DNA of 64,000 bases from Bacteroidales bacterium (GTDB lineage Bacteria > Bacteroidota > Bacteroidia > Bacteroidales > F082), in contig JAKSMV010000001.1 in assembly GCA_024400425.1 (NCBI GenBank), forward strand, positions 62,001 through 126,000, in the 5' to 3' direction. Numbering within the stretch: the first letter of the stretch is position 1; every line of letters begins with the position of its first letter. The notes beneath the pieces were generated by a model. The model ran no database searches. It saw nothing but the letters and a program-made list of their open reading frames with translations, and was not told the origin of the DNA. Shown in pieces: positions 7,983 through 59,152 of the stretch. Made by a program: the position numbers and the translations under genes.

Positions 7983-8611
7983 TACTTTTGAATTTCTATT
8001 GATGTGATGGTAACAGGGTTGACCGGGACGTCCATATAACCGGTTTTCACGGCTGCGATTTTATCGACTATGTCGAGTCCTTCAATCACTTCGCCGAATA
8101 CGGTATAGTCGCCGTCGAGGTGAGGTGTGCCACCCATCGATTTGTAGGTTTGTCTTTGTTTCAGTGAGAAGGTCTTGCCGTAGCGTTCTTCCATGAAGTC
8201 GAGTGTAGTGTCATCCCAGACCTTGCCTTGGACGATGTAGAACTGGCATCCGCTCGAGGCTTTCTTGGGGTTCACTTGGTCGCCTTGGCGTGCTGCACAA
8301 AGAGCACCTTTCTTGTGGAAGTGGTTGCTCTTGAATTCGGCAGGAACGGTCCAACCTGGAGTTTCGCGGCCATCGGCATTTTGTCCGCCTTGAATCATGA
8401 ATTGGTTGATGACACGGTGGAAAGGCGAGCCATTATACCAGCCTTCGTTCACCAGCTTGATGAAGTTGTCGCGGTGAAGTGGTGTGTCGTTATAAAGTTT
8501 TGCCTTTATGGTGCCGTAGTTCGTTTTGATGACTACGACGGTTTCTTTTTCTTGTTGCGCTTGGCAGGATAATCCAACTAAAACGAGCATAGCTAAAATC
8601 AATTTTTTCAT
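7982..8611 (-). CDS. Exported cyclophilin-type peptidyl-prolyl isomerase
   Basis: A 209-residue cyclophilin that catalyses cis-trans isomerisation of proline bonds, here outside the cytoplasm. A signal peptide (hydrophobic residues 3-15) is followed by SCQAQ; Cys16 could be lipidated or cleavage could fall after QAQ. The cyclophilin core is clear: GWYNGSPFHRVINQFMIQGG (with the catalytic Arg in FHRV) and a later GCQFYIVQG and FGEVIEGLDIVDKI. The gene precedes pheS on the minus strand and shares one base with it. A possible promoter lies at 8639-8646. Identification of the fold is secure; client proteins are unknown. Confidence 0.92.
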   Translation of the reverse strand: MKKLILAMLVLVGLSCQAQQEKETVVVIKTNYGTIKAKLYNDTPLHRDNFIKLVNEGWYNGSPFHRVINQFMIQGGQNADGRETPGWTVPAEFKSNHFHKKGALCAARQGDQVNPKKASSGCQFYIVQGKVWDDTTLDFMEERYGKTFSLKQRQTYKSMGGTPHLDGDYTVFGEVIEGLDIVDKIAAVKTGYMDVPVNPVTITSIEIQK

Positions 8612-45650: not shown

Positions 45651-46346
45651 TTACAGGTTCAATGTCACGCCATAGTCATGGAGCCAGTCTTCACATTCTT
45701 TGTAATTGGGCATAACGCTAAAAACGGCATCCCAGAATTGGCGCGAGTGCTGCGGATATTTCAGATGTGTAAGTTCGTGGACAACAAGATAATCAATGAT
45801 TTCTGGTTTTGCCATCAGACATTTCCAATGAAAGTTGACATTTTTTTTTGGTGTGCAAGATGCCCAATGTGCGCCTAACTCTCGCACCGATATGTTTGTG
45901 GGTTCTCTGCCCACCAATTTTGAAAAATGAGATACGCGTTCTTGCAAATAGGGGAGGCCTTGTTTCTTGTAGAATTTGATGAATTGTTCGCGTGCCGTTG
46001 GCAGATGCTTGGCATTCAACACAAATCTGTCGTCGATGATTTGTAGAGGCGTTGCACGCATTGTTTCTACGGAATTAACAATTTGCAGATTGTAGGATTT
46101 CCCCATAAACAGAAACGCCTGTCCGTTGACGAAACTGCGATTGATTTGTGCTCGGGTGACAGCTTTGCGTTTGGCCACATGCTGGCAAATGTTGTATTCG
46201 CGTGCTGATAATTCCTTGAAAATCACATCGTCGGAGCAATCCTGCGGCACCATTGCGTTGACGCTGCCATCTGGCTCAATGTTGACTGTGATGGTCTTTT
46301 TGCGTGCTGAACGACGAATTTCTATGTCTAAACTACCGACTTGCAT
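45651..46346 (-). CDS. YgjP-like (DUF45/M48-type) metal-dependent hydrolase
   Basis: A 231-residue soluble protein with the zinc motif LVVHELTHLKYPQHS at 188-201; His190 and His194 with Glu191 form HExxH and His200 may be the third ligand. The ELGAHWASCTPKKNVNFHW segment before it matches the YgjP/SprT-like family. Such genes often sit beside hsdR in type I restriction operons but their role is not known. The start overlaps the hsdR stop by 14 nt, so it is the last gene of this hsd operon. Confidence 0.9.
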   Translation of the reverse strand: MQVGSLDIEIRRSARKKTITVNIEPDGSVNAMVPQDCSDDVIFKELSAREYNICQHVAKRKAVTRAQINRSFVNGQAFLFMGKSYNLQIVNSVETMRATPLQIIDDRFVLNAKHLPTAREQFIKFYKKQGLPYLQERVSHFSKLVGREPTNISVRELGAHWASCTPKKNVNFHWKCLMAKPEIIDYLVVHELTHLKYPQHSRQFWDAVFSVMPNYKECEDWLHDYGVTLNL

Positions 46347-49300
46347 CTTGCTGATTCCTGTATTTCAATACGCTCTCATTGCTTTTCGCTAATTTGATCA
46401 GTTCGGTGACGATGGCCTCACTATTCTCTTTGAGAACCGAGATTTTGGAAAAGCGCAAGGCCGTTCCCAACTCGCCACGCAAGGCGGTGACATCAGTCGG
46501 CTTGGTCCAAAGGTTTGGTATGTCCATGGCTTGGAGAATCATCCCTAACACTTTGTCGGTGAGGGCGATAATGTTGTCGTGGCTTTCCTCAAAATCGAGG
46601 CCTGCGCACTGACACAACTTGTCGTAGAAAGGTTCTTTTTCTTCGCTCACTATTGATGGTTTCGGGTGGGCAAGCTCTTGACGAAGCAATTCCAACTCTT
46701 CAACCATCGCATCCCAGTTGCCCGAATAGGTAGTAAGAATGTTTTCCATCCGGTCTTTGAAGCGCTGATAAAGTGCGGTGTTCTTTCCTTCGCCTAACTT
46801 GATGGTGATGCGGTCGCGAATCTGGTGTTCCATTGCTGAAGCCTTAGTTTGCGCACAGTGGTACATCTTGTTGATGGTGCTTGGAAAGTCGTCGGAGAAA
46901 ATATCGACTTCGGGAACGGTTTCGCGCACTCCTGCCGATTTAAGGTATCTGTCGAGAAGACGACGTACTTTTTCGCTTGCCCATTTCAGGTCGAGTGTCG
47001 GATCCTTGTAATGCCAACGGATAAGAGCTACCAAATAAGCCAAACGTTTGGCAGGTACATAATATTTGCTGCGTGTTTCAGGCTCGTTGAAAAGCAAGTC
47101 GAAGATGTCGAAGAAGAGACGCAAAAGGGCATCAAGCTCCGTGCGGAATTTGATGCTTTTGGCAATGGCAACCACTTTCTCGCAAATCTGTTTTTCCATC
47201 TCGCTGTCAGTGCGTTGCTCCAAGAAATCCTTGATGTTGCCAATGCCTTCTTCTTCAAAGCGTTGGATGATTTTTGTGTATCGAAGTTCCAATTCTGGAA
47301 TTTCTTTTTCGATGGCTGAGAAGTAGGTTTCAAATTCCAATAGGTCTTTGGAGGCGGCCTTTTCGTCATCGCTGTTGTAGATGCCTAAGGCGCGGTGCAG
47401 GTTTTTGGTAACACCGAAATAATCGACCACCAAGCCGTGTGTCTTCTCTTTGCGGGTTCGGTTTACGCGTGTGATAGCCTGCATCAGGTTGTGCTCAGAA
47501 AGGTTTTTGTCGAGGTACATCACTTGCTCGATAGGTGCGTCGAAGCCCGTGAGCAGACGGTCGCAGACACACAGGATACCGATACCCGTCAATGGATTTT
47601 CCTCGTTGAAGTCTTTCTTGAAGTTCACCACAGCATCATCGTCATGTGCCTCTATACGGGCTTTCCGTATGATGGCATCTTCGTTGTTTCCGCAACTTGA
47701 AACCACTGCACGCACTTTCAGCATTTTCAGGCGTTTCAATGTGACTTCGTCGCGCTCTTCCTCCGGTTTTTCTTCAGCTGCCTTGATGAATTCTGGAATT
47801 AGGCGCTCCAAGGCAATCTTGTAGCGTACTGCCGCTAAAATTGATGATGCCACCACTTGAGCCTTGAAGCCGTTAGGCAGGATATTGGCCACATAATGCT
47901 CCATCATGTCATGAGCGATTTTCATGATACGGTCGGCACTCTCTAAATAGGCGATCATAGTACCATATCGGCGCTGTATTTCGATGCGTTCCTCTGACGT
48001 GCGTTGCTTGAAAGTGGTTTCAAAGGTAGTGTCGAACTCTTCTTTGTAGGGAATGTCGTCTTGGCTTTTCCGCCCAATGTATTTGATGTCAACGGTAGCT
48101 TTGTCCTTCACCGAGTCGTTCATCTTATAAGTGTCGATGAAGTCGCCGGCGGCTTGGCCAAAACGCTCGCAGGTGGTGGCTTTGTGGCGCGGCGTGATGA
48201 GCGGTGTGCCCGTGAAGCCAATGCGTGCCGCGTTGGGGAAAGCCTGAAAGAGGTTGTCGCCCATCTCGCCGCCTTGCGAACGGTGAGCTTCGTCGATGAG
48301 CACCAAAATCTTCTCGCTTTCGTTGATGACCGGGAAGCTCTCGTATTTTGGAACGATGCCCGACTTTATGAGCGATTCAAGTGAATACTCCTTGTTTTCG
48401 CCAAACTTGTGAATCATCACCAAGTTGAGGTCGGCGGTGTCGCCTTCCAATTTCATTAAGGCTTGGCGGTTTTCTATGATGTTCTGTATCTGTCTCGTTT
48501 TCGGGTCGTGGCGAAGTTCGCCCGTGTATTCGGCAGTTTCGGCTAATTGGTCTTCCAAGTCATGACGATCGACGACCATCAAGATGCGGTATTCGCAGAG
48601 GTCGGCGATGTGGCGCATCTTGCGCACCAAGAAGACCATCGTGAGCGACTTGCCGCTGCCCTGCGTGTGCCATATCACACCGCTGCGGCTTCTCCAGTCG
48701 GTGCCGCTTTGCAGTTTGCGTATCATCTTGCCCACTGCGCGGTATTGTTGATAGCGGCAGATGATTTTCACCGTGCTGTCGCCCTTGTGCATGAAAAGGG
48801 TGAAGTTACGGAAAATGTCAATCAGGATTTCGTGGTTGAACATGCCCTTGATGAGCACTTCCTGCCTTTCGCTTGGCTCGATGTTCATGCCATCGGCATA
48901 TTCTTCGGGGAAGATGTCCTTCCAATTGAGGTAGAAGTCGAAATCGGCAGAGATGGTGCCGCATCGGGCTTCGGTACCGTGGGTGATGACCGAGAAGAGA
49001 TTGGTGTGAAACAGCCGTTCGCAGCCTTCTTCCACATTATCGGCAAAGGGGTCGTCGGTGACACGCTGGTTGGCATAGCGTTGTATCTGCGTGTAGGCTT
49101 CGCTCAGTGGTTCCGACACGTCCTCGTCCTTGCATTCGATGACCACCAACGGGATGCCGTTCACAAAGCAGACGATGTCGGGGATGATGAAGGGCTTGGT
49201 GTTGTGGGTATCGACGCGGAACTGGTTGATGGCGATGAAGGAGTTTTTATCGTAACGGTCGAAGTTGATGATTTTGGCGGTAGGATTTTCCTCGCCAGTG

Positions 49301-49611
49301 GTTTCGTTTTTGGTGCGGAGCGGGATGCCCTTGAGCAGCAGGTTGTGAATCCGGCGGTTGGCGTCGATGAGTGGCTCGTTTACCACGTTGAGTTGGTCGT
49401 AGCAGTAGCGTTTCTGCTCGGCGGTAATCCACGGGTTGAGTTCGCCGAGCATACGGTAGAATTCCTCTTTGAGGACGACTTCGTCGAAGGAGTTGCGCAT
49501 GGTTTCGGCCGGGTCTTGCGGTATGCCACCGCAACCTTTGTCAATCACTTTCCACCCGATTTCGCGGAGTTTGTCGAGGAACGGGCGTTCAACGTTGGTG
49601 TATTCGGACAT
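46333..49611 (-). CDS. hsdR: Type I restriction enzyme R subunit (HsdR)
   Basis: HsdR is the motor and nuclease of the type I complex; it translocates DNA and cuts away from the unmethylated site. The 1092 residues have the PD-(D/E)xK nuclease at the N-terminus (IPDIV at 143-147, then VVIECK at 156-161), Walker A TQGSGKS at 316-322, the DEAH box LIDEAHRS near 435, TGTPL near 467, and a C-terminal helical part. It appears intact. It is 24 nt after a DUF1016 nuclease gene. A truncated copy of its own first codons lies upstream at 50736-50795. Confidence 0.96.
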   Translation of the reverse strand: MSEYTNVERPFLDKLREIGWKVIDKGCGGIPQDPAETMRNSFDEVVLKEEFYRMLGELNPWITAEQKRYCYDQLNVVNEPLIDANRRIHNLLLKGIPLRTKNETTGEENPTAKIINFDRYDKNSFIAINQFRVDTHNTKPFIIPDIVCFVNGIPLVVIECKDEDVSEPLSEAYTQIQRYANQRVTDDPFADNVEEGCERLFHTNLFSVITHGTEARCGTISADFDFYLNWKDIFPEEYADGMNIEPSERQEVLIKGMFNHEILIDIFRNFTLFMHKGDSTVKIICRYQQYRAVGKMIRKLQSGTDWRSRSGVIWHTQGSGKSLTMVFLVRKMRHIADLCEYRILMVVDRHDLEDQLAETAEYTGELRHDPKTRQIQNIIENRQALMKLEGDTADLNLVMIHKFGENKEYSLESLIKSGIVPKYESFPVINESEKILVLIDEAHRSQGGEMGDNLFQAFPNAARIGFTGTPLITPRHKATTCERFGQAAGDFIDTYKMNDSVKDKATVDIKYIGRKSQDDIPYKEEFDTTFETTFKQRTSEERIEIQRRYGTMIAYLESADRIMKIAHDMMEHYVANILPNGFKAQVVASSILAAVRYKIALERLIPEFIKAAEEKPEEERDEVTLKRLKMLKVRAVVSSCGNNEDAIIRKARIEAHDDDAVVNFKKDFNEENPLTGIGILCVCDRLLTGFDAPIEQVMYLDKNLSEHNLMQAITRVNRTRKEKTHGLVVDYFGVTKNLHRALGIYNSDDEKAASKDLLEFETYFSAIEKEIPELELRYTKIIQRFEEEGIGNIKDFLEQRTDSEMEKQICEKVVAIAKSIKFRTELDALLRLFFDIFDLLFNEPETRSKYYVPAKRLAYLVALIRWHYKDPTLDLKWASEKVRRLLDRYLKSAGVRETVPEVDIFSDDFPSTINKMYHCAQTKASAMEHQIRDRITIKLGEGKNTALYQRFKDRMENILTTYSGNWDAMVEELELLRQELAHPKPSIVSEEKEPFYDKLCQCAGLDFEESHDNIIALTDKVLGMILQAMDIPNLWTKPTDVTALRGELGTALRFSKISVLKENSEAIVTELIKLAKSNESVLKYRNQQDASR

Positions 49612-49635: not shown

Positions 49636-50715
49636 TTATTCGTGATTTTCTGCATTACTTGGGTAATCAAATCTTTCCTTGGCGGCTTCTAACGATTTTT
49701 GGATTTGGCGCATCAGCACTTCGCGAGGCGGCAGTTCCGTCATATATTGGGCAACCTTGATGCCCGCCTTGTCAAGTTGCAGAAGTTCAATCTGTTCATC
49801 TCCGCCTTCGGTGCAAAGCAACAGACCGAGAGGCGTTTCCTCGCCCGGTTCCATCTCGTTTTGTTCCAACCAGCGCAGGTAAAGCTCCATCTGCCCCTTA
49901 TATTGTGCCTTGAAGCTTCCGAGTTTCAAATCTATGGCGATAAGGCGGTGCAATCGGCGATGATAAAACAGCAGGTCGAGATAAAAATCCTCACCATCAA
50001 TAATCATACGTTTCTGGCGTGCCACAAAACTGAAGCCGTTGCCCAATTCTATGATGAACTGTTCCAAATGCGCCAACAGACTGTCTTCCAAACTTTTCTC
50101 GCTATACATTCCTTTCAGACCAGTAAATTCCAAGAAATAAGGACTTTTGAACACCAAATCGGGGGAAAGCACATTATCATTGCGCAGTTGCGAAAGCTCC
50201 TGTTTTATCAATGCATCGGGTTTGGAGGCGATGGCAGTTCGCTCGTAAAGCATTCCGTCGATTTTCGCCTGCAAAGTTCTCACGCTCCACTGTTCTGTTG
50301 CAGCCATTGTAAGATAAAACTCCCGTTGAATTTCATCTTTCAAAGTCATAACTATCAGGAAATGAGACCACGACAATTTTGACAACAGTGTTGACACAAT
50401 TTGAATGTCAGGAAACATGGCGGCAAATTGCATCATTCTACGGATAGTGCGTTCTTCAAATCCTTTGGCTCCATATTCGGCTTGTAATTGTCGCGACACT
50501 GTTGAGACAATTTGCTTTCCATATTCGGCACGCTGATTGTCAAGTACTTCGCGGTTGATGCGTTCGCCGATGTGCCAATACATCATCGTAAGCTCGCTGT
50601 TAACTGTGACTGCCACACGACTGCGTGCCTGCTCGATAATCTGCCGCAAATCCGTAACCAAAGATTTTGACACCACTGGTGCGACAATTTGATTGTTTTG
50701 TTTTATCTCGTTCAT
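49636..50715 (-). CDS. DUF1016/YhcG-type PD-(D/E)xK nuclease (copy 2)
   Basis: The 359 residues have an N-terminal DUF1016_N helical domain (ARSRVAVTVNSELTMMYWHIGERI) and a C-terminal nuclease fold with IDGEDFYLDLLFYH near 240-254 and AIDLKLGSFKAQYKGQM around 262-278, the D..DxK pattern. Family members are common companions of type I restriction genes, perhaps with a role in defence or DNA processing. The ATG at 50715 is used; an upstream TTG was rejected. It lies between an hsdR 5' fragment (50736-50795) and full hsdR, which suggests it arrived as an insertion. It shares only fold-level likeness with copy 1. Confidence 0.9.
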   Translation of the reverse strand: MNEIKQNNQIVAPVVSKSLVTDLRQIIEQARSRVAVTVNSELTMMYWHIGERINREVLDNQRAEYGKQIVSTVSRQLQAEYGAKGFEERTIRRMMQFAAMFPDIQIVSTLLSKLSWSHFLIVMTLKDEIQREFYLTMAATEQWSVRTLQAKIDGMLYERTAIASKPDALIKQELSQLRNDNVLSPDLVFKSPYFLEFTGLKGMYSEKSLEDSLLAHLEQFIIELGNGFSFVARQKRMIIDGEDFYLDLLFYHRRLHRLIAIDLKLGSFKAQYKGQMELYLRWLEQNEMEPGEETPLGLLLCTEGGDEQIELLQLDKAGIKVAQYMTELPPREVLMRQIQKSLEAAKERFDYPSNAENHE

Positions 50716-50735
50716 TTTCAATTCAATTTTGTTTT

Positions 50736-50795
50736 TTATTTAATCTCGCGGAGTTTGTCGAGGAACGAGCGTGAAATGGTGGTGGAAGAGGGCAT
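50736..50795 (-). pseudogene. Truncated hsdR 5' end
   Basis: A 19-codon frame from an ATG at 50795 ends in SFLDKLREIK and then a stop. Full hsdR starts with RPFLDKLREIGW at the same position relative to its ATG. At DNA level 50744-50772 matches 49560-49588 at 27 of 29 bases. The fragment lies just after the second MBL gene, where a complete hsdR may once have begun. Confidence 0.7.
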
Positions 50796-50805
50796 GATTC
50801 TTTTA

Positions 50806-51669
50806 TTATTTGAAACATTTAACAGCTAAAAGTCCATTGTACCTCATATCATCACTTTCTCCAAATACGACTTGAATATTACCATCATTTCTAGTTGTCA
50901 GGCAATAACGTTTATTCATTTCACCATTTGAATTTTCCACTTCCCAACCACGGCTTATTCGTGTGTATTTATCAGATGCACTTGCTCCGATTTTATTTGT
51001 GTCTGATATGATTGTAAGTCGAGGATTAACCTTAGCAACAAAGTCAGAATGATATGCGGATTCTCTTCCATGGTGTGGTGCAACTAATATGTCTGCATTT
51101 TTAATGGCACTCTTGAAAGAATCTTTTTGCATTAAAACATCAAGAGAGGCTGTTTCATTATCTCCGCATACGACCACTTTGACCCCCGAAAGTGTAAAAA
51201 CTGCAATTGTACTAAAATTATTGAAATTAGAATGGTCACAAGCAGATGTGGAAAAAGTTTGAATTTCTAAACCTCCATAATTATCAGAGTTATCAGGATT
51301 ATTGCTGTCGTTAGAACTAACCGGAGAATTATATTGATCATTGATTTCACAATATTTCTCAAATTTCTCTTTGTCACAATCACGTACTCCTTCCATTACT
51401 TCTTCGTTAGTTAATGAAGTAGCTCTTTTTAGAATTTTCGGAGCATTATTGTCAAAGTGTAGAATATCGTCAATATGATCGAGATGCGGATGCGTTATTA
51501 TCATATATGCGATATTATTCCATCTAAGTTTTGCCAAAGGAGATGTATTACCACTATTGTAGTCACCTGTTCCGAGGTCAATTACAACATATTTTCCATT
51601 GGGTGCTTTAATGTGAACTGCAAGACCGAGTTGCACATTCCAAACTGTCATTGTTGCTGTTTTAGCCAT
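50806..51669 (-). CDS. ComEC-type MBL-fold hydrolase (cassette gene 4)
   Basis: A 287-residue metallo-beta-lactamase-fold protein from the ATG at 51669. The metal motif is THPHLDHIDD at 59-68 (HxHxDH). VVVCGDNETAS supplies the later Asp and VAPHHGRESAYHSD the His, as in ComEC-like nucleases or phosphodiesterases. A low-complexity insert with DSNNPDNSDN lies near residue 120. It starts one base after the stop of the membrane protein gene, so the two are translationally coupled. The region is visibly more AT-rich than its neighbours. Substrate unknown; nucleic acid or a nucleotide signal is plausible. Confidence 0.85.
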   Translation of the reverse strand: MAKTATMTVWNVQLGLAVHIKAPNGKYVVIDLGTGDYNSGNTSPLAKLRWNNIAYMIITHPHLDHIDDILHFDNNAPKILKRATSLTNEEVMEGVRDCDKEKFEKYCEINDQYNSPVSSNDSNNPDNSDNYGGLEIQTFSTSACDHSNFNNFSTIAVFTLSGVKVVVCGDNETASLDVLMQKDSFKSAIKNADILVAPHHGRESAYHSDFVAKVNPRLTIISDTNKIGASASDKYTRISRGWEVENSNGEMNKRYCLTTRNDGNIQVVFGESDDMRYNGLLAVKCFK

Positions 51670-51670
51670 A

Positions 51671-52195
51671 TTATTCTTTTGCGTTTTCAAGTGTGTTATT
51701 ATTTACTTCGTCAATGTTTTTCACGACATATTTATTTATTTGTTTTCTGTACGAGAAAACAAACAGCACCAATAATGCTACTAATAGAACCCATATACCA
51801 TTTTGAACCAACCATGTCCATTTTGTTGATAGTTTCATTAGACCATAACCACAAAGGGAGATAAGGAAGACAGATATAAATGCCCTATACATATTTGCAC
51901 TTTCTTGCAAAGTGGCAATAAAAGGTCTTTCTTTTCTTGCTTTATTGTAAGACTCATAATCTCTCCATTCTATCAAATGTATTTTCTTACATATCCATTC
52001 AATAGCAACGGATGAAAATCTGCTATTTACAATGCCAACTAGATAGCAAATAACAATACATGCCCACACATTATATTCTAAAATTGGATAGCCAATATAA
52101 CTGAGGATCAAACATAGCGCACTACCTGGAATAATATTGTTTAATATTTCGTAGTGCGAAATCTTTTCAAATAATTTTGTTAAAAAAGTTTCCAT
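51671..52195 (-). CDS. Four-helix membrane protein (cassette gene 3)
   Basis: The 174-residue protein has four predicted membrane helices, at about 21-38, 42-58, 104-121 and 128-148, with a basic cytoplasmic loop (ESYNKARKERPF) between the second and third and a polar C-terminal tail. No known motif is seen. It lies between two MBL-fold genes (7 nt after the first, 1 nt before the second). Its place and shape would suit a membrane effector or an anchor for the MBL proteins, but that is inference only. Confidence 0.75.
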   Translation of the reverse strand: METFLTKLFEKISHYEILNNIIPGSALCLILSYIGYPILEYNVWACIVICYLVGIVNSRFSSVAIEWICKKIHLIEWRDYESYNKARKERPFIATLQESANMYRAFISVFLISLCGYGLMKLSTKWTWLVQNGIWVLLVALLVLFVFSYRKQINKYVVKNIDEVNNNTLENAKE

Positions 52196-52202
52196 ATATT
52201 TA

Positions 52203-53276
52203 TTATTTAATAGGTGTTGCTACTGAATATCCATTATGTGTTTTTGTGTTTTTATGATGACACATGTTGCCATTAATATTTGTCGAATAAACTTTAGTGC
52301 CTATTGCATTTAACACATTTACAACAGCTTTACTTAAATAATGTCCATATTTTTCAGTTGAGATAAAAGCCACCTTCGGATGTATATAATTAATCATTTT
52401 GTTGTCTAAATTATGTTTGCTACCATGATGCGGAACCTTTAGAAAATCAACATTTCTAACAGCATAAAGTGTATTTTTGGGAATATTCTCAATTGATTCT
52501 CTACAAGCATCACCCATAAATAAGAACTTTTTTCCATCCGAAGGCTGGAATAACAATATTACACTACTTTTATTATGTGATGAAGGATCGTCCTCTGCTT
52601 CTTCTAATGTTTGGCTGAACGTTCTATTTTCTTGAATTACAACGTCTTGTTCTTGCAATTCATCCGAATCATAGCCATTCTTTTTTCTTTGTAAATCATT
52701 TCGAAAATCGGGGACCAGTGATTTGTAGTATTCTTTTGTCGGCCCAATTATTTGAAACAAACCATTCTCACAAATACTCACTTCGCCTTCTTTTGATGCA
52801 TCCGAAAACGGTTCACACATCTCCATTCTTCCACACCTCTGCAGATGTTCTATAATGTCAAATAAATTATCATGATCTTTTAAATCAAATACGGTTCTTG
52901 CTTTAACCATTTTAGTCTGGGCACTCATTGTTTGACTCCATTTGACTTCTCCATTTGGAACATGTTTTGCCGGGTCATTTATCCATATTTGGCCAATATT
53001 CATATTATCATTGCTATTATCCCTTTGCTGCTCTAACAAATACGTAATACCCCCAAAATGGTCTTTGTCACAATGAGAGCAAATTGCGACATCAATTCTT
53101 TTATCTCGTCCATAATGTGTTCTGATAAATTGTGCAATTTTAGTTCCATCCTGATAATTTCCACCGTCAATCAGAACCACATAATCATGATCCGTTTCAT
53201 CATCCCAAAAATGAATTAAAAATGCATCCGCATTTTTAACATCAAGCATGTCGATTTCATATTTATTAACTATCAT
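52203..53276 (-). CDS. ComEC-type MBL-fold hydrolase (cassette gene 2)
   Basis: A 357-residue MBL-fold protein unrelated in sequence detail to the second one. The metal motif is ICSHCDKDHFGG (HxDxDH, His68, Asp70, Asp72, His73), with LFMGDACRES for the later Asp and LKVPHHGSKHNLD for the His. It has a long middle insert (about 90-230) rich in charged residues. The ending STNINGNMCHHKNTK is unusual. It follows a 115-aa orphan by 10 nt and precedes the membrane protein by 7 nt. It is AT-rich like the rest of the cassette. Activity is inferred from the fold. Confidence 0.85.
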   Translation of the reverse strand: MIVNKYEIDMLDVKNADAFLIHFWDDETDHDYVVLIDGGNYQDGTKIAQFIRTHYGRDKRIDVAICSHCDKDHFGGITYLLEQQRDNSNDNMNIGQIWINDPAKHVPNGEVKWSQTMSAQTKMVKARTVFDLKDHDNLFDIIEHLQRCGRMEMCEPFSDASKEGEVSICENGLFQIIGPTKEYYKSLVPDFRNDLQRKKNGYDSDELQEQDVVIQENRTFSQTLEEAEDDPSSHNKSSVILLFQPSDGKKFLFMGDACRESIENIPKNTLYAVRNVDFLKVPHHGSKHNLDNKMINYIHPKVAFISTEKYGHYLSKAVVNVLNAIGTKVYSTNINGNMCHHKNTKTHNGYSVATPIK

Positions 53277-53286
53277 ACCTTAATAT

Positions 53287-53634
53287 CTATTTTATCGGTT
53301 CATAATATGCCCAAGTGTCACTCCCCTTTATCACGGATTGGATTTCCTCATCCGAAAATGGACATCCTTTTGCCGTGTCCCCAAAAATTGTTGTTCCTAA
53401 CCGAATTCTATTCACTTTGTAAAAGCCATCGGTATCCTGTGGACAAGAAGGATTGGGTTGTGAAATAGCGGTATTTGGAATACTTATTTCTTTAATCTCA
53501 ATTGAGCATTTCCCATTTTCATTAATGCATTGTTTTCCTGTAGGGAAAAGTGTTATACTTTGTCCACACATATCGGACAAGACTTTTGAAATTTGATTCA
53601 ATACAGTTGGAATTGCAAATAAAAAATTTTCCAT
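53287..53634 (-). CDS. Orphan protein (115 aa), cassette gene 1
   Basis: I do not recognise this protein. Its 115 residues start MENFLFAIPTVLNQISKVL, a probable amphipathic helix, and hold five cysteines (in MCGQS, QCINENGKC, SCPQD and GCPF) with a final WAYYEPIK. There is no signal peptide or membrane helix I trust. It is the first gene of the four-gene AT-rich cassette, 10 nt ahead of the first MBL gene, and starts 22 nt after the end of an hsdS 3' remnant. Confidence 0.65.
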   Translation of the reverse strand: MENFLFAIPTVLNQISKVLSDMCGQSITLFPTGKQCINENGKCSIEIKEISIPNTAISQPNPSCPQDTDGFYKVNRIRLGTTIFGDTAKGCPFSDEEIQSVIKGSDTWAYYEPIK

Positions 53635-53655: not shown

Positions 53656-53780
53656 TTACTCATTACTTTTCAATAATTCTTCCATCAGCCCTTTCTTCAC
53701 GCCCTTGTATTTCTCCACCACCTTCTCCTCGGCGGCAATCTTCGAAATAGAATTTAGAGTTTGACGATAAAGATTTGTTC
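53656..53780 (-). pseudogene. Duplicated hsdS 3' end
   Basis: The minus strand encodes KIAAEEKVVEKYKGVKKGL and a stop at 53656-53658, the C-terminus of HsdS with no start. At DNA level 53679-53744 matches 54284-54349 of full hsdS at 63 of 66 bases. Upstream of this the frame continues for about 12 codons and then fails. It marks an old 3' end of hsdS next to the MBL cassette. Confidence 0.8.
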
Positions 53781-53790
53781 TGTGCTTATG

Positions 53791-54219
53791 TTAGCACCTA
53801 ACTATTTCAATTTTTTCTAAATCACTACTCGTATATCCTAATTCTTTACGTATCTCATTTATGATTTTTGTTTGATAATCCATATGTTGCTCTTTTGTGA
53901 GTGGTGTGGTAGTTGTTGATTGTACCAAACGACGGATATAATCATTGACGATGTTCGCTAAACCTTTGTCAGCAAACATCAAAATTTTTATAGTGCTGGA
54001 CTGTAGAGCACTGAAATTATCAGGATTAGAATTCTGAACCATATTTTGTAGAGTGTTGAAATATTCTTCGTAGACTTGAATTTTTATTTCATTAAGCCTA
54101 ACTTTCTTTGCATTTTTAAACTCTTGTCGTTTCCCTAAATATGAAAATACACTTGGTACTAATGCGCCAAGAAAAGCGGAACCTGCCGCTATTAATGCTG
54201 TTTGAATGCTCATATCCAT
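53791..54219 (-). CDS. Membrane-anchored orphan protein (142 aa)
   Basis: The 142 residues begin with a membrane helix (about 7-27, TALIAAGSAFLGALVPSVFS) and continue with charged helices (KNAKKVRLNEIKIQVYEEYFNTLQ). No known domain is recognised. It lies between full hsdS and the duplicated hsdS tail, so it looks like a one-gene insertion. A short palindrome AACTTTAAAAGTT at 54228-54240 sits just upstream of its start. The function is unknown. Confidence 0.65.
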   Translation of the reverse strand: MDMSIQTALIAAGSAFLGALVPSVFSYLGKRQEFKNAKKVRLNEIKIQVYEEYFNTLQNMVQNSNPDNFSALQSSTIKILMFADKGLANIVNDYIRRLVQSTTTTPLTKEQHMDYQTKIINEIRKELGYTSSDLEKIEIVRC

Positions 54220-54263: not shown

Positions 54264-55469
54264 TTATTTTCTCCCCATCATCTCTTCCATCAGCCCTTTC
54301 TTCACGCCCTTGTATTTCTCCACCACCTTTTCCTCCGCAGCAATCTTCGCATCCACACTCGACAATATCCCTGCAATGCGACGCTGCTCGGCGAGGTCGG
54401 GCTGACCATTCTTGTAAGGCAGATAGAAAGAGAATGTTTCGTACTCGTTTCCATTAATTCCAGGTTGTCCAGTGCGCATTGAATTGTTGGCAATCCAGTT
54501 TTTATATTGTTGTGTTTGCGTTTGGTATTTGAAAAAACTTGATAGCAAGATGTCCTCATCTGTTTTGACGCGGATAAGAAATCCTGCAAATACCAAAATT
54601 CCATCTTGAGGATTGTATAAATATGTTTTCCCTACACTTGCCCCAGTCCTTGCAAAAACCAAATCGCCTTCTTCCATTTTATATTTATACGCATCTGGAT
54701 CCGCTACCGAAACGACATCATTTTTGGAATAATATCCATCTTCTGTAATGTCAGTAATTCGCAAATATGTGGGAAGTTTGTTGTCGTAAGCAACTGCAGG
54801 GGCATTAATTCCATAATCAGGTTTTTGTTTCAAGCATTCCCCCAGCTTCACCTTCTTCCACCCCTCTTTGGGTTGCAGCAGGGTGGCCAGGAGGCCGCGC
54901 TTGATGTTACGGTACTTCTCTATCAGCGCCTCAGATGCCGCTATCGCCCCGTCAGCACTGCTCAATATCCCTGCAATGCGACGCTGCTCCGCGAGGTCGG
55001 GCGTGCCATCGTTATAAGGAACAGCAATTTCAATTTTCTTTAATAAACTTGGTGTAATTGCAGGATAACTTGTTCCTGTACATAAACCCAAAACTTGGGA
55101 AACAAAATCAAATGTATGAACCAAATAATAAATAAACTTGGATTCATAATTCTGATAGGGTCTCAATAATGCGTAACCAGTAGATGCAACATATTTTTTA
55201 TTTTCTCCCAAAAACAAATAATTATTTTTTTGATAGGGTCTTACTGTTTGATATAATATATCACCATTGTCAACCAAACGTTGAGCTCTACTTGGAGCTT
55301 CTTGTTTAGAAATAAATTGTTCTTTAATAAGATTACCAGATACAACACTTTCTAAATCAATATAAATAAATTGTTCGGGTATAGCCCAATTGTTATGAGG
55401 ATTCACCTCGCAGCAATCTCCCAACTTTTTAGTAACCCATTTCGTCATTGCGCTTTCATTATTGTTCAT
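54264..55469 (-). CDS. hsdS: Type I restriction specificity subunit (HsdS)
   Basis: HsdS chooses the target site for methylation and restriction. From the ATG at 55469 it is 401 residues; an ATG at 55448 is also possible. Two target-recognition domains (about 10-160 and 205-355) alternate with two conserved helical regions, which share PDLAEQRRIAGILSS and differ after it. The repeat is also clear in the DNA (near 54358-54422 and 54957-55019). The second half begins KLGECLKQKPDYGINAPAV. It overlaps the DUF1016 gene by 11 nt. The gene is intact, with a duplicated 3' end downstream. Confidence 0.93.
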   Translation of the reverse strand: MNNNESAMTKWVTKKLGDCCEVNPHNNWAIPEQFIYIDLESVVSGNLIKEQFISKQEAPSRAQRLVDNGDILYQTVRPYQKNNYLFLGENKKYVASTGYALLRPYQNYESKFIYYLVHTFDFVSQVLGLCTGTSYPAITPSLLKKIEIAVPYNDGTPDLAEQRRIAGILSSADGAIAASEALIEKYRNIKRGLLATLLQPKEGWKKVKLGECLKQKPDYGINAPAVAYDNKLPTYLRITDITEDGYYSKNDVVSVADPDAYKYKMEEGDLVFARTGASVGKTYLYNPQDGILVFAGFLIRVKTDEDILLSSFFKYQTQTQQYKNWIANNSMRTGQPGINGNEYETFSFYLPYKNGQPDLAEQRRIAGILSSVDAKIAAEEKVVEKYKGVKKGLMEEMMGRK

Positions 55470-56535
55470 TATTAGCCGATTTCTCAATATCTTCAATGCT
55501 TGGCAGCGAAGACTTGTATTTTTCCGGAATCAATTTTGAAAGTTCATATCCCGAAATGCCAATAGGCTGACTCGATGATTCAAGCGCATATTGTGCCTCA
55601 ACCTTATCCATATCTTTGCAGACCAGAATGCCGATTGTCGGTGTATCGTTTTCTCCCTTCAGCTGGTGATTGACAGCCACCACGTATGTGCCCAATTGTC
55701 CCGCATACGAAGCATCGAAAGGCGTTACCTTTACCTCAAGCACCACATAACAGTGAAGCTTAATGTTGTAAAACAACATATCCAAAAATTTCTCCTTTTC
55801 TCCCACCATCAGACGAACTTCACGACCTACAAAAGCAAATCCGCTACCCAATTCGAGCAGGAATCTTGAAATATTGTCCATCAGGGCATCTTTAAGCTCC
55901 TTCTCATCGTAACGTTCGTGCAATGTCAGAAAATCAAAATTATAGGGATCTTTGGTTATTTCTTGCGCCAATTCACCTTGTATGGCAGGTAGATTTTCTT
56001 TGAAATTGGTAATGGCCTTGCCTTGGCGTCCAAATAAATCGGCTGACAGATAATTCAAGAGAACCGCTCTCGACCAACTGTTTTCTACCGTTTTGTTGAT
56101 ATAAAACAATGCCTTGTCAGGCTGGTTTTTGCATTTGTCGATAATCAATTTATGATGCCCCCAAGGAACTTCAAACAAGGCCGCCAATTGCCCCCCAACC
56201 TGGGGAGTATTTGAAATTGCATCTTCTTCAGATTGCTCCCCAACTTGGGGAGTGGTTTCAACAAGCTGATTGTAAAGAAGATAAAAATTCTTCATATACA
56301 ACAAATTGGTAACAGAAAATGACTTTACATCTGGTAAACTTTTCTGCAAATCCGTACTGATTTGTTGCAAAATCTTGTCACCATAAACAGATTTCTCCGA
56401 CAGCACTAAAATATCTTTGCCTAAAAACCAGTAGAATTCAAGCATTTCGGTATTGACCTTTACGGCAGCTTTTACCTGACACCTACGAAATTGTGCGGCG
56501 ACTTGTGAAATCCATTCTTTATAATCTTTTTCCAT
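55459..56535 (-). CDS. DUF1016/YhcG-type PD-(D/E)xK nuclease (copy 1)
   Basis: The 358 residues have a DUF1016_N part (CQVKAAVKVNTEMLEFYWFLGKDI) and a C-terminal nuclease fold with EKFLDMLFYNIKLHCYVVLEVKVTPFDASYAGQ (quoted as LDMLFYN and LEVKV). In between, TPQVGEQ and TPQVGGQ, 15 residues apart, are encoded by two near-identical palindromic repeats, an in-frame expansion. It lies between hsdM and hsdS in the operon. The ATG at 56535 is used; the TTG at 56541 was rejected. Confidence 0.9.
   Translation of the reverse strand: MEKDYKEWISQVAAQFRRCQVKAAVKVNTEMLEFYWFLGKDILVLSEKSVYGDKILQQISTDLQKSLPDVKSFSVTNLLYMKNFYLLYNQLVETTPQVGEQSEEDAISNTPQVGGQLAALFEVPWGHHKLIIDKCKNQPDKALFYINKTVENSWSRAVLLNYLSADLFGRQGKAITNFKENLPAIQGELAQEITKDPYNFDFLTLHERYDEKELKDALMDNISRFLLELGSGFAFVGREVRLMVGEKEKFLDMLFYNIKLHCYVVLEVKVTPFDASYAGQLGTYVVAVNHQLKGENDTPTIGILVCKDMDKVEAQYALESSSQPIGISGYELSKLIPEKYKSSLPSIEDIEKSANNEQ
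56187..56252. repeat. Two in-frame palindromic repeats in the DUF1016 gene
   Basis: Each copy has ATTG followed by CYCCCCAACYTGGGGAG; they start at 56187 and 56232, exactly 45 nt (15 codons) apart. CTCCCCAACTTGGGGAG at 56236-56252 is a perfect palindrome around one C. They encode TPQVG. Confidence 0.7.
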
Positions 56536-56581
56536 GTTCAATTTTGTTTGCGAAAATCAAAACACAAAGGTACGGTTTTTC

Positions 56582-59152
56582 TTATTTTGAAACATACCCC
56601 AGTTCCTTCAGATGCGCTTCCAATTGCTCGGTGGCGCGCTGGCGTTCGGCAATCAGGGCGGTGAGCGTCACGGTGTATTTGTCGTGCAGCAACTCGACGT
56701 CCTGCTGCAACTTGCGGGCGTGGGCTTCCAGATATACCGCTATGGTGTCGTGCAGGGTGTGCAGCCAGCGGGCGGTGATGAGCCGGCGGGCGTCGTCGTC
56801 GGAGATTTGCTCGCGTGCCTTGTCGGCCAACGCCTCCTTGCTTTGCTCAATTTCGCGTAGCTTCTTGCGGCACTCTTTCAGTTCGTTTTCAAGTTCAACA
56901 TGATGTTTGATGCTGTCTTCCTTTTCAGCAATCCTTGCCTCCACTTCCGATGCTTCACGCTTGCAGTTCTGTATCTCGGTCTGCAACTGTTCGCCAACTT
57001 TGAAACGTTTCTCGAAGGCTTTCAGCAACTTGGAGACTTCTCGTTTCCTTGCTCTCAACTCTTTTATCTCGCTTTTCACCTCGGCAATGATGGCTTTTGG
57101 CATCACTTCATATTGTTCGGCATCCCACTCATCGTTGTCCATTTCGGCAATTTCGGCAAACTTGGCATCAAGTTCGTCGCGACGGCTTTCCAACCGCTGC
57201 ATGTCGGCCAGCACTTCAGGAAACTCGTTGGCGATAAGCTCATCGTCGGGAATCAACTCAGCGGTCCAGCCACTCGACTGCACGCTGCGGAAATCGCTGC
57301 GCAAGGAAGAAACGAAGTGAGCAAATGAGCCACGCACTTGGTTTGCATCAAGGACATTCAGTGGCTCCAACTGCGTCACAAATTTCTCTGTAAGGCTGTT
57401 GTTGAAATCGAACAAGCTACCTTGATGCAAGGTGTCACGGTCGTTGGAAGAGGCTGTCCAGAAATCATCGATGGCGCGGCTGTAGGCCGCCGCCACCTGC
57501 TGCTTGCCATTGCTCTCGGCTATCAACTGCTTGATGTCGCCCTTTTCAGTAACAGCATCGGCAAATTGGGCGTAACCATCGGCGGCTTGGGTAAAGAGCT
57601 GCTGCTGCAAGCCTTCGTAGCAGTCGAATTGTGCTTCCAGTTCGTCGATTTCGCTTTGCGGGATGCCGCCGTTGATGTGGGCACGCACATCTTGTGGCGT
57701 AGGTGCCTCGGAATTATCCACATAGCGACGAATATTGCAGTTGAAATCCTCGGCTTCCAGTTCCTCTTTGGTCACGAGGCGGCTGTAGCCTTCGATTTCA
57801 ATCTTGTTGTGATACACATAGCTGATTTTCTCCACATCTTCGGGACGGAGCGAGTTCTGGTTTTTGCCTTCCTTGTATTCGCGGTCGGCATTGATGAAGA
57901 AGACACCTTTCCGTTGGTTAGCACCCGCTTTGTTGATGATAAGCAGCGAGGCGGGAATGCCGGTGCCGTAGAAGAGTCCCTGCGGCAACCCTATGACACA
58001 CTCGAGGATACAAGAAGCGTTGGCATCGCTGCCCATGATGAGCCGCTGACGCATCTTTTGTTCCTCGCCACCGCGGAAGAGCACGCCGTGCGGCATCACT
58101 ACTGCCATGCGCCCATTGTTCTTCAGCACCGAGATCATGTGTTGCACAAACATGAAGTCGGCCTGTTTCTTCTTGCTCATCCAGTTCTGGAAACGCTCCT
58201 TGAATTGCATGTTGGCGGTGGTGTAGTTTTGCGAGAAGGGCGGGTTGGCCACCACGATGTCATATTGGTTGAGTGTGCCGCCCGACACCAACTTCGGATT
58301 CACTAAAGTGTCGCCTTGCTCGATGCGGGCGTTTCGGATGTTGTGGAAAATCATGTTCATCTTGCACATTTGGTAAGGGCTGTCGAACTTCTCTTGCCCG
58401 TGCAGGGTGAGTTTGGCAGCGCTGCCATAGCGGTTTTCCACATAGTTGTGCATCGTAATCAACAAACCGCCCGACCCGACCGTAGGGTCACAAATCTCGT
58501 CGGTCTCCTTGGGTTGTAAAATCTGTCCCATCAGATAGACAACTTCCGAAGGCGTATAAAACTCGCCAGCCTTTTTTCCTGCACTTTCAGCGAAGAATTT
58601 GATGAGATATTCGTAAGCTGCGCCGAGCAGGTCAGGAAACTCGAAGTTCTCGTCTTGCAATTTCGGGAAGTCGTTAAACTCCTTCAGAATGTCGCGCAAC
58701 GTTTCATCGTCCAAAATACGTTCACCTTTGGTATTCAGCTCATTAAACTTGGTTTTGCTAAGTACGCCCGAAAGCAGAGCCGCATTTGATTTCTCCACTT
58801 CGGCGAGTGCTGTGGTGATAGCATCGCCATAACTTACTTCTTCGCCTTGTTCGTTCAACGGATGAAGTACATGTTTCCATCGGGCGAGTGCGGGCACATA
58901 GCAGTTGTATTTGGCAGGCTTATCGAGTTCGCTCTCAATGTCAGCCTCATCAGCGTCGGGGTATTGCTTGCGCAAGGCATCCTTCAGCGCAATGCGGTCA
59001 ATTTCAAACTGGTCGTTGATACGCTTCAGGAAAAGCAGTGCGATGATGTAGTTCTTGTATTCGGCAGCGTCCATGCTGGTGCGCAAACGGTCGCATTGGG
59101 CTTTGAGGAAAGACTCTAATCGCGAGAGTGAGATCTTTGATTTTAAAGGCAT
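56582..59152 (-). CDS. hsdM: Type I restriction methyltransferase subunit (HsdM), long form
   Basis: HsdM methylates adenine N6 at the HsdS target site. The 856 residues hold an N-terminal helical domain, AGEFYTPSEVVYLM (near 195-208), the SAM motif CDPTVGSGGLL at 221-231 and catalytic NPPF at 303-306. After about residue 500 it has a long extension, with coiled coil from about 640 on (KREASEVEARIAEKEDS, LREIEQSKEALADKAREQ). Many HsdM proteins are about 500 residues, so this is a long form. It is the first gene of the hsd operon, with a -7 element upstream. Confidence 0.95.
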   Translation of the reverse strand: MPLKSKISLSRLESFLKAQCDRLRTSMDAAEYKNYIIALLFLKRINDQFEIDRIALKDALRKQYPDADEADIESELDKPAKYNCYVPALARWKHVLHPLNEQGEEVSYGDAITTALAEVEKSNAALLSGVLSKTKFNELNTKGERILDDETLRDILKEFNDFPKLQDENFEFPDLLGAAYEYLIKFFAESAGKKAGEFYTPSEVVYLMGQILQPKETDEICDPTVGSGGLLITMHNYVENRYGSAAKLTLHGQEKFDSPYQMCKMNMIFHNIRNARIEQGDTLVNPKLVSGGTLNQYDIVVANPPFSQNYTTANMQFKERFQNWMSKKKQADFMFVQHMISVLKNNGRMAVVMPHGVLFRGGEEQKMRQRLIMGSDANASCILECVIGLPQGLFYGTGIPASLLIINKAGANQRKGVFFINADREYKEGKNQNSLRPEDVEKISYVYHNKIEIEGYSRLVTKEELEAEDFNCNIRRYVDNSEAPTPQDVRAHINGGIPQSEIDELEAQFDCYEGLQQQLFTQAADGYAQFADAVTEKGDIKQLIAESNGKQQVAAAYSRAIDDFWTASSNDRDTLHQGSLFDFNNSLTEKFVTQLEPLNVLDANQVRGSFAHFVSSLRSDFRSVQSSGWTAELIPDDELIANEFPEVLADMQRLESRRDELDAKFAEIAEMDNDEWDAEQYEVMPKAIIAEVKSEIKELRARKREVSKLLKAFEKRFKVGEQLQTEIQNCKREASEVEARIAEKEDSIKHHVELENELKECRKKLREIEQSKEALADKAREQISDDDARRLITARWLHTLHDTIAVYLEAHARKLQQDVELLHDKYTVTLTALIAERQRATEQLEAHLKELGYVSK

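Follow-up and report, generated by a model that had tools for sequence, protein, structure and literature searches.

How do defence genes come to lie inside a type I restriction operon, and why does one such operon hold, among its inserted genes, a short truncated copy of the start of its own restriction gene? The window analyzed here, a stretch of 64,000 nucleotides from a Bacteroidales genome, carries hsdM, hsdS and hsdR in a single operon (Pfam), which identifies the locus as type I. The order of genes on the minus strand is that of the following lines, in which a truncated hsdR start is called a stub, the beginning of hsdR its head, and the genes between hsdS and hsdR cargo.

56582..59152, minus: hsdM, methyltransferase subunit (Pfam).
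55459..56541, minus: DUF1016 gene 1, in the hsdM-hsdS interval (Pfam, PADLOC).
54264..55496, minus: hsdS, specificity subunit (Pfam).
53791..54219, minus: 142-aa gene, apparently inserted at the hsdS end (100% identical to a protein of the relative L024).
53678..53744, minus: 67-nt hsdS-tail copy, a putative mirror scar at the hsdS end (96% identity to the 3' end of hsdS over these 67 nt; L024 has the copy too).
53287..53634, minus: 115-aa gene, first of the putative older cassette, without a family match.
52203..53276, minus: MBL gene 1, LmuA- or PDC-M48B-like (Pfam, PADLOC).
51671..52195, minus: 174-aa putative membrane protein, PDC-M48A (PADLOC; membrane nature from sequence only).
50806..51690, minus: MBL gene 2 of the older cassette, PDC-M48B (Pfam, PADLOC), ending 10 nt before the stub.
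50736..50795, minus: hsdR-head stub, a 19-codon ORF, recognized by similarity to the hsdR start and by recurrence in relatives.
49636..50721, minus: DUF1016 gene 2, with DUF1016_N and a YhcG PDDEXK nuclease domain, PDC-S02 (Pfam, PADLOC), the presumed inserted cargo after the stub; ATG at about 50715.
46333..49611, minus: hsdR, restriction subunit, with HSDR_N and SWI2_SNF2 (Pfam); its first bases are the proposed fresh head.
45651..46346, minus: gene for a SprT-like metallopeptidase, named from the annotation of its E. coli and Klebsiella counterparts.

The window's cargo has strong matches to the PADLOC candidate systems PDC-M48 and PDC-S02, and cargo in relatives matches GmrSD, TIR-STAND, NACHT and Lamassu-like families; many cargo proteins thus resemble defence families, suggesting a putative anti-phage role. 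The SprT-like gene also lies downstream of hsdR in the close relatives, with the exception of L025, where the contig ends. DUF1016 gene 2 itself contains three partly similar stretches of about 33 nt (50376-50408, 50487-50519 and 50664-50696; repeat D4), and inverted repeats too.

Read on the minus strand from 50795 to 50736, the stub is ATGCCCTCTTCCACCACCATTTCACGCTCGTTCCTCGACAAACTCCGCGAGATTAAATAA, which translates to MPSSTTISRSFLDKLREIK and a stop codon; the start of hsdR (49611-46333) is MSEYTNVERPFLDKLREIGW. The two share a core, CGCTCGTTCCTCGACAAACTCCGCGAGAT in the stub and CGCCCGTTCCTCGACAAACTCCGCGAAAT in hsdR, in which 27 of 29 bases are equal, with an exact run of 22 nt, and the similarity is weaker on both flanks of this core (76% over 66 nt, ATG included; repeat D3). 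Comparing the 5' end of hsdR with the interval upstream by blastn matched hsdR nt 12-53 at E = 1.8e-9, and a 71-nt stub query against the whole 2.96-Mb genome returned only itself and hsdR (E = 1.9e-7), the rest having E > 2. The earlier note had read these codons as a truncated hsdR start before DUF1016 gene 2, a reading borne out by the alignment, the confirmed ORF, and a genome-wide search in which hsdR is the sole other significant match. The good match extends over only 42 nt and the first ten codons differ, as might be expected of chance similarity or a convergent short motif, but the length of the exact run, its genome-wide expectation, and the presence of the same structure in relatives make coincidence extremely improbable.

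The close match is confined to the second half of the stub, its first ten codons being unlike any hsdR head compared (MSEYTNVE..). A pattern for these odd codons, MPSSTTISRS (the first half of the stub, a region given as window 50736-50765), matched the window alone among 393 Bacteroidales genomes. Since this half has no counterpart in those genomes, it either stems from an hsdR lineage absent from the sample or has itself decayed heavily.

With HsdR as query, 84,980 species genomes yielded 12 loci, ten of them covering approximately the whole protein at 81-83% identity, one (L025) truncated at a contig end, and one (L026) at 51%; the set of genes between hsdS and hsdR was different in each. 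In a self-comparison, the 5' end of every hsdR was searched for in the interval upstream of that gene. This revealed head copies in ten relatives as well as the window (L015, L016, L017, L018, L019, L020, L022, L023, L024 and L025), so that truncated hsdR starts lie among cargo genes in 11 of the 12 loci with closely related hsdR, the window counted. L021 has a more decayed head copy, visible only in alignment with L023. The more distant L026, from Treponema, has neither cargo nor stub, its hsdS and hsdR overlapping by four bases. L024, from a horse-faeces genome, has four stubs, each ahead of one of four successive cargo genes.

These relatives also bear on whether the hsdR start was simply duplicated in tandem and then decayed, with no foreign DNA involved. 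The L024 stubs, which match their own hsdR head near-perfectly, are what such duplication would leave; however, in nearly every case cargo that varies by locus lies between the copies, and duplication by itself brings no new cargo. The L022 stub, moreover, is nearer to the hsdR of other species (74/84) than to its own (63/84), which implies that stub and hsdR head come from different lineages and that the head has been replaced. We consider local duplication very improbable.

Some stubs are shared between loci together with the sequence after them. The same stub and promoter-like segment stands ahead of differing cargo in L016:8138-8264, L015:3567-3674 and L025:1947-2054, as does a second such segment in L019:8125-8261, L021 (approximately 8094-8260) and L023:8137-8263; because the cargo differs behind a shared segment, some cargo exchange appears to take place behind an existing stub. 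Additional genes also lie in the gap between hsdR and the SprT-like gene in L015:8049-9320, L016:13273-14217, L020:13403-14554 and L024:13320-14369; a search of this gap in these four relatives for sprT heads and hsdR tails found no copies, a weak result for L020 and L024, whose sprT query started ahead of the real beginning of the gene.

Two relatives indicate the order of insertion. DUF1016 gene 2 is common to the window and L024 (99.2% protein identity); in the window it is followed directly by hsdR, and in L024 the same spacer leads into ATGCCCGAATACACCAACGTCGAGCGCCCGTT, which matches hsdR nt 1-32; a GmrSD-like gene comes next, and an intact hsdR after it. The DNA of the two is mostly 93-100% identical across the DUF1016 gene and drops within the hsdR heads on both sides, and their hsdR genes are 78% identical. 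From the arrangement DUF1016-hsdR in the window versus DUF1016-hsdR[1-32]-GmrSD-hsdR in L024, the window shows intact a site that has been broken into in the other lineage. L023 has hsdS, counterparts of MBL gene 1 and the TM gene (73% and 64% identical), a further MBL gene, a stub 11 nt on, a different cargo pair, and hsdR; by its gene order it is the window's arrangement with a different second insert.

The hsdS end of the window carries a copy of its own. The earlier note had proposed that an hsdS tail is duplicated across the cassette and that the cassette is flanked by this tail and by the hsdR head; both copies are real, the tail copy lying at 53678-53744, but the tail goes with the 142-aa gene and not with the cassette. 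L024 lacks the MBL cassette and has the same 142-aa gene between hsdS tails, with 98.5% identity across 721 nt (window 53678-54219, L024:939-1677, with an hsdS tail on either side of the gene in both). The tail copy thus seems to belong to a separate insertion, that of the 142-aa gene, as a mirror event at the hsdS end, and identity this high beside hsdR genes only 78% identical points to recent transfer of the 142-aa gene unit.

The history put forward earlier, in which hsdS-cassette-hsdR came first and a DUF1016 gene then arrived together with a fresh hsdR 5' end, remains the best-supported one, given the recurrence of stubs in close relatives and in unrelated hsdR families, and the arrangements of L023 and L024; none of the loci found has an intact hsdR straight after the second MBL gene. 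We conclude, with a probability of roughly 0.8, that the window's fragment is a recombination scar: cargo has been added one insert after another at the start of hsdR, and every insert has supplied that gene with a new 5' end.

Stubs are not confined to close relatives of this hsdR. We took the upstream DNA of another 40 hsdR loci. The window's bacterial family supplied 39 of them (identity no higher than about 36%, with different N-termini) and its order one (L095, 51%); copies of their own heads were found in 7 of the 38 that were testable (L059, L065, L069, L086, L090 with two, L091 and L093). At a common threshold of E 1e-5, an own-head copy lies upstream of 18 of 51 hsdR genes, whereas among the other genes of these loci 9 of 357 have one (Fisher, 5.8e-12), and the excess persists when the close family is left out (7/38 versus 9/357, P = 3e-4). 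The stubs tabulated come to 25 in 18 loci. Across the phylum, 3 of 40 Bacteroidota loci have stubs: L120 and L124, copies of one locus with more decayed stubs (80%), and L139, in which the copy extends to nt 107. As L120 and L124 come from single-contig genomes, the stub is not an assembly artefact. Own-head copies were absent from eight plasmid and seven E. coli loci (15 proteobacterial or cyanobacterial loci in all). Viral contigs contained no related hsdR, their single exact match to a head motif lying in unrelated DNA, and a search of plasmids by DNA identity returned none. Two genomes of the family, G093 and G073, have a relative of MBL gene 2 outside this operon type, that of G093 with no restriction genes adjoining and that of G073 adjoining a divergent, different type I operon.

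Head copies begin at or near the start codon and end at nt 26-87 outside L139, and where tested they are restricted to the first ~107 nt of hsdR. No other part of hsdR recurs, the distant loci being covered by the first 1.5-1.9 kb of the gene; one match of 34 nt in L016, involving the AT-rich 3' end, was discounted as a common AT-rich spacer.

In many genomic islands at gene ends, the end of the gene is duplicated, the gene is restored, and cargo lies between the repeats. The direct repeats and restored gene seen here are of this kind, and the hsdR heads might accordingly be attachment sites, with stubs as left repeats and an integrase acting in trans. The loci differ from such islands in having no integrase, no fixed core sequence, and differing gene families: unrelated hsdR families with unrelated heads all show copies, the copy ends range from nt 26 to 107, and no recombinase turned up in the window's cargo or in the examined cargo of its relatives. 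With heads and copy ends this variable and no recombinase identified, we regard a fixed attachment site as quite improbable.

A somewhat less improbable, but still unlikely, alternative is that the stub works as a leader, a translated mini-ORF that hands ribosomes to the cargo gene behind it, or else serves to insulate or regulate that gene. Every stub is a short ORF, several end some 20 nt short of the start codon that follows (20 nt in the window; 19, 20 and 21 nt in L024), and some are followed by TAnnTTTG, a Bacteroidetes-type promoter motif, common to different cargo. Working leaders should be conserved, however, and stubs gather changes more quickly than hsdR does: where 12 hsdR heads are invariant, stubs had 19 amino-acid changes in 180 codons versus 4 in 232 for hsdR by leave-one-out (P = 1.3e-4, and 0.009 without the window's stub; these values are rough, as the two position sets differ slightly). 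The changes at invariant positions include two stops, one further stub is frameshifted, the stop-to-start distance across all stubs varies from 7 to 198 nt, and many inserts have no stub. The constraint on stubs is relaxed, and because invariant residues are broken, with stops and a frameshift, we read them as scars.

How might such scars form? We suggest that the hsdS-hsdR interval acts as a dock for defence genes, and that new cargo enters at the upstream edge of hsdR, joined to a fresh hsdR 5' end that becomes the start of the working gene. The older start would be truncated 10-30 codons in, at most, its remnant staying behind as a stub that separates earlier from later cargo, and repeated insertion would build arrays of the form hsdS-cargo1-stub-cargo2-stub-cargo3-hsdR. 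The machinery is likely ordinary homologous recombination at hsdR, making a dedicated recombinase unnecessary. Linear DNA could recombine at one end within hsdR and be joined illegitimately near the hsdR start at the other; alternatively, a circle with a short hsdR head could enter by a single crossover. These routes would lead to the same end structure and fit equally well. The window and L024 junctions would be compatible with one homologous and one non-homologous end, although both of them fall within heads. Stubs are probably short since recombination between direct repeats of greater length would remove the cargo.

A counterpoint to serial scarring is the absence of stubs from cargo-bearing loci of E. 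coli and of plasmids. In E. coli, loci with one hsdR type have no cargo (L110, L112), one gene (L106, L107, L111) or two (L105, L108); identity between L112 and L106 begins exactly at the hsdR start codon, and in L108, with two genes, the first codons differ. These first codons vary with the cargo ahead (MNQTYT versus VDKHYQ; L106:8983, L108:9001, L112:8983), a sign that there too cargo may arrive with its own hsdR start. Cargo without a stub implies that clean insertion is possible, and that the stub is a frequent by-product in Bacteroidales but not a requirement.

A broader and more tentative proposal, which we think possible but would not favor, is that the hsdR start is a portable homology dock, and that units of head and cargo circulate between type I operons of several unrelated Bacteroidota hsdR families as integrase-free cassettes. 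Such cassettes would enter and leave by recombination between head copies and would line up defence modules in arrays (one relative has five cargo steps).

Elements of this picture have precedents. The gene prrC is embedded in the type I locus ecoprrI (PMC12707154), and DarTG2 lies between hsdS and hsdR in enteropathogenic E. coli, at a site termed a potential recombination hotspot (PMC12255303). Our loci share with these the hsdS-hsdR position and varied defence cargo; in contrast, no hsdR stubs are described in the portions of those papers available to us, and here the inserts are serial, each with a scar. Orphan Rhs toxin modules likewise place displaced gene fragments beside the main gene, where their homology is usable for recombination (PMC3967940). 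The resemblance lies in truncated copies of the main gene's end beside accessory modules; the Rhs fragments, however, are 3' and carry the toxin, whereas ours are 5', 10-30 codons long, carry nothing, and accompany cargo unrelated to hsdR. Experiments on transformation and conjugation have documented homology-facilitated illegitimate recombination (PMC3240628), which would place DNA beside a gene with such a junction through one homologous and one illegitimate end; here the route is a proposal, in a different setting. The PADLOC entries PDC-M48 and PDC-S02 correspond to the cargo and not to the scar. Defence genes between hsdS and hsdR are thus already known; serial hsdR-head stubs are apparently new, as we found no description of them in the open-licence literature, in the portions available, where embedding itself is described.

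Defence genes within type I restriction operons have served to discover anti-phage systems, and their route of entry has left little direct trace. As footprints, the stubs would mark where inserts entered, often beside hsdR, indicate that insertion was additive, and record the order in which modules were built up. They are detectable in any genome through self-comparison of hsdR starts, by which cargo modules may be delimited and mined, and they make the insertion route itself open to laboratory testing.
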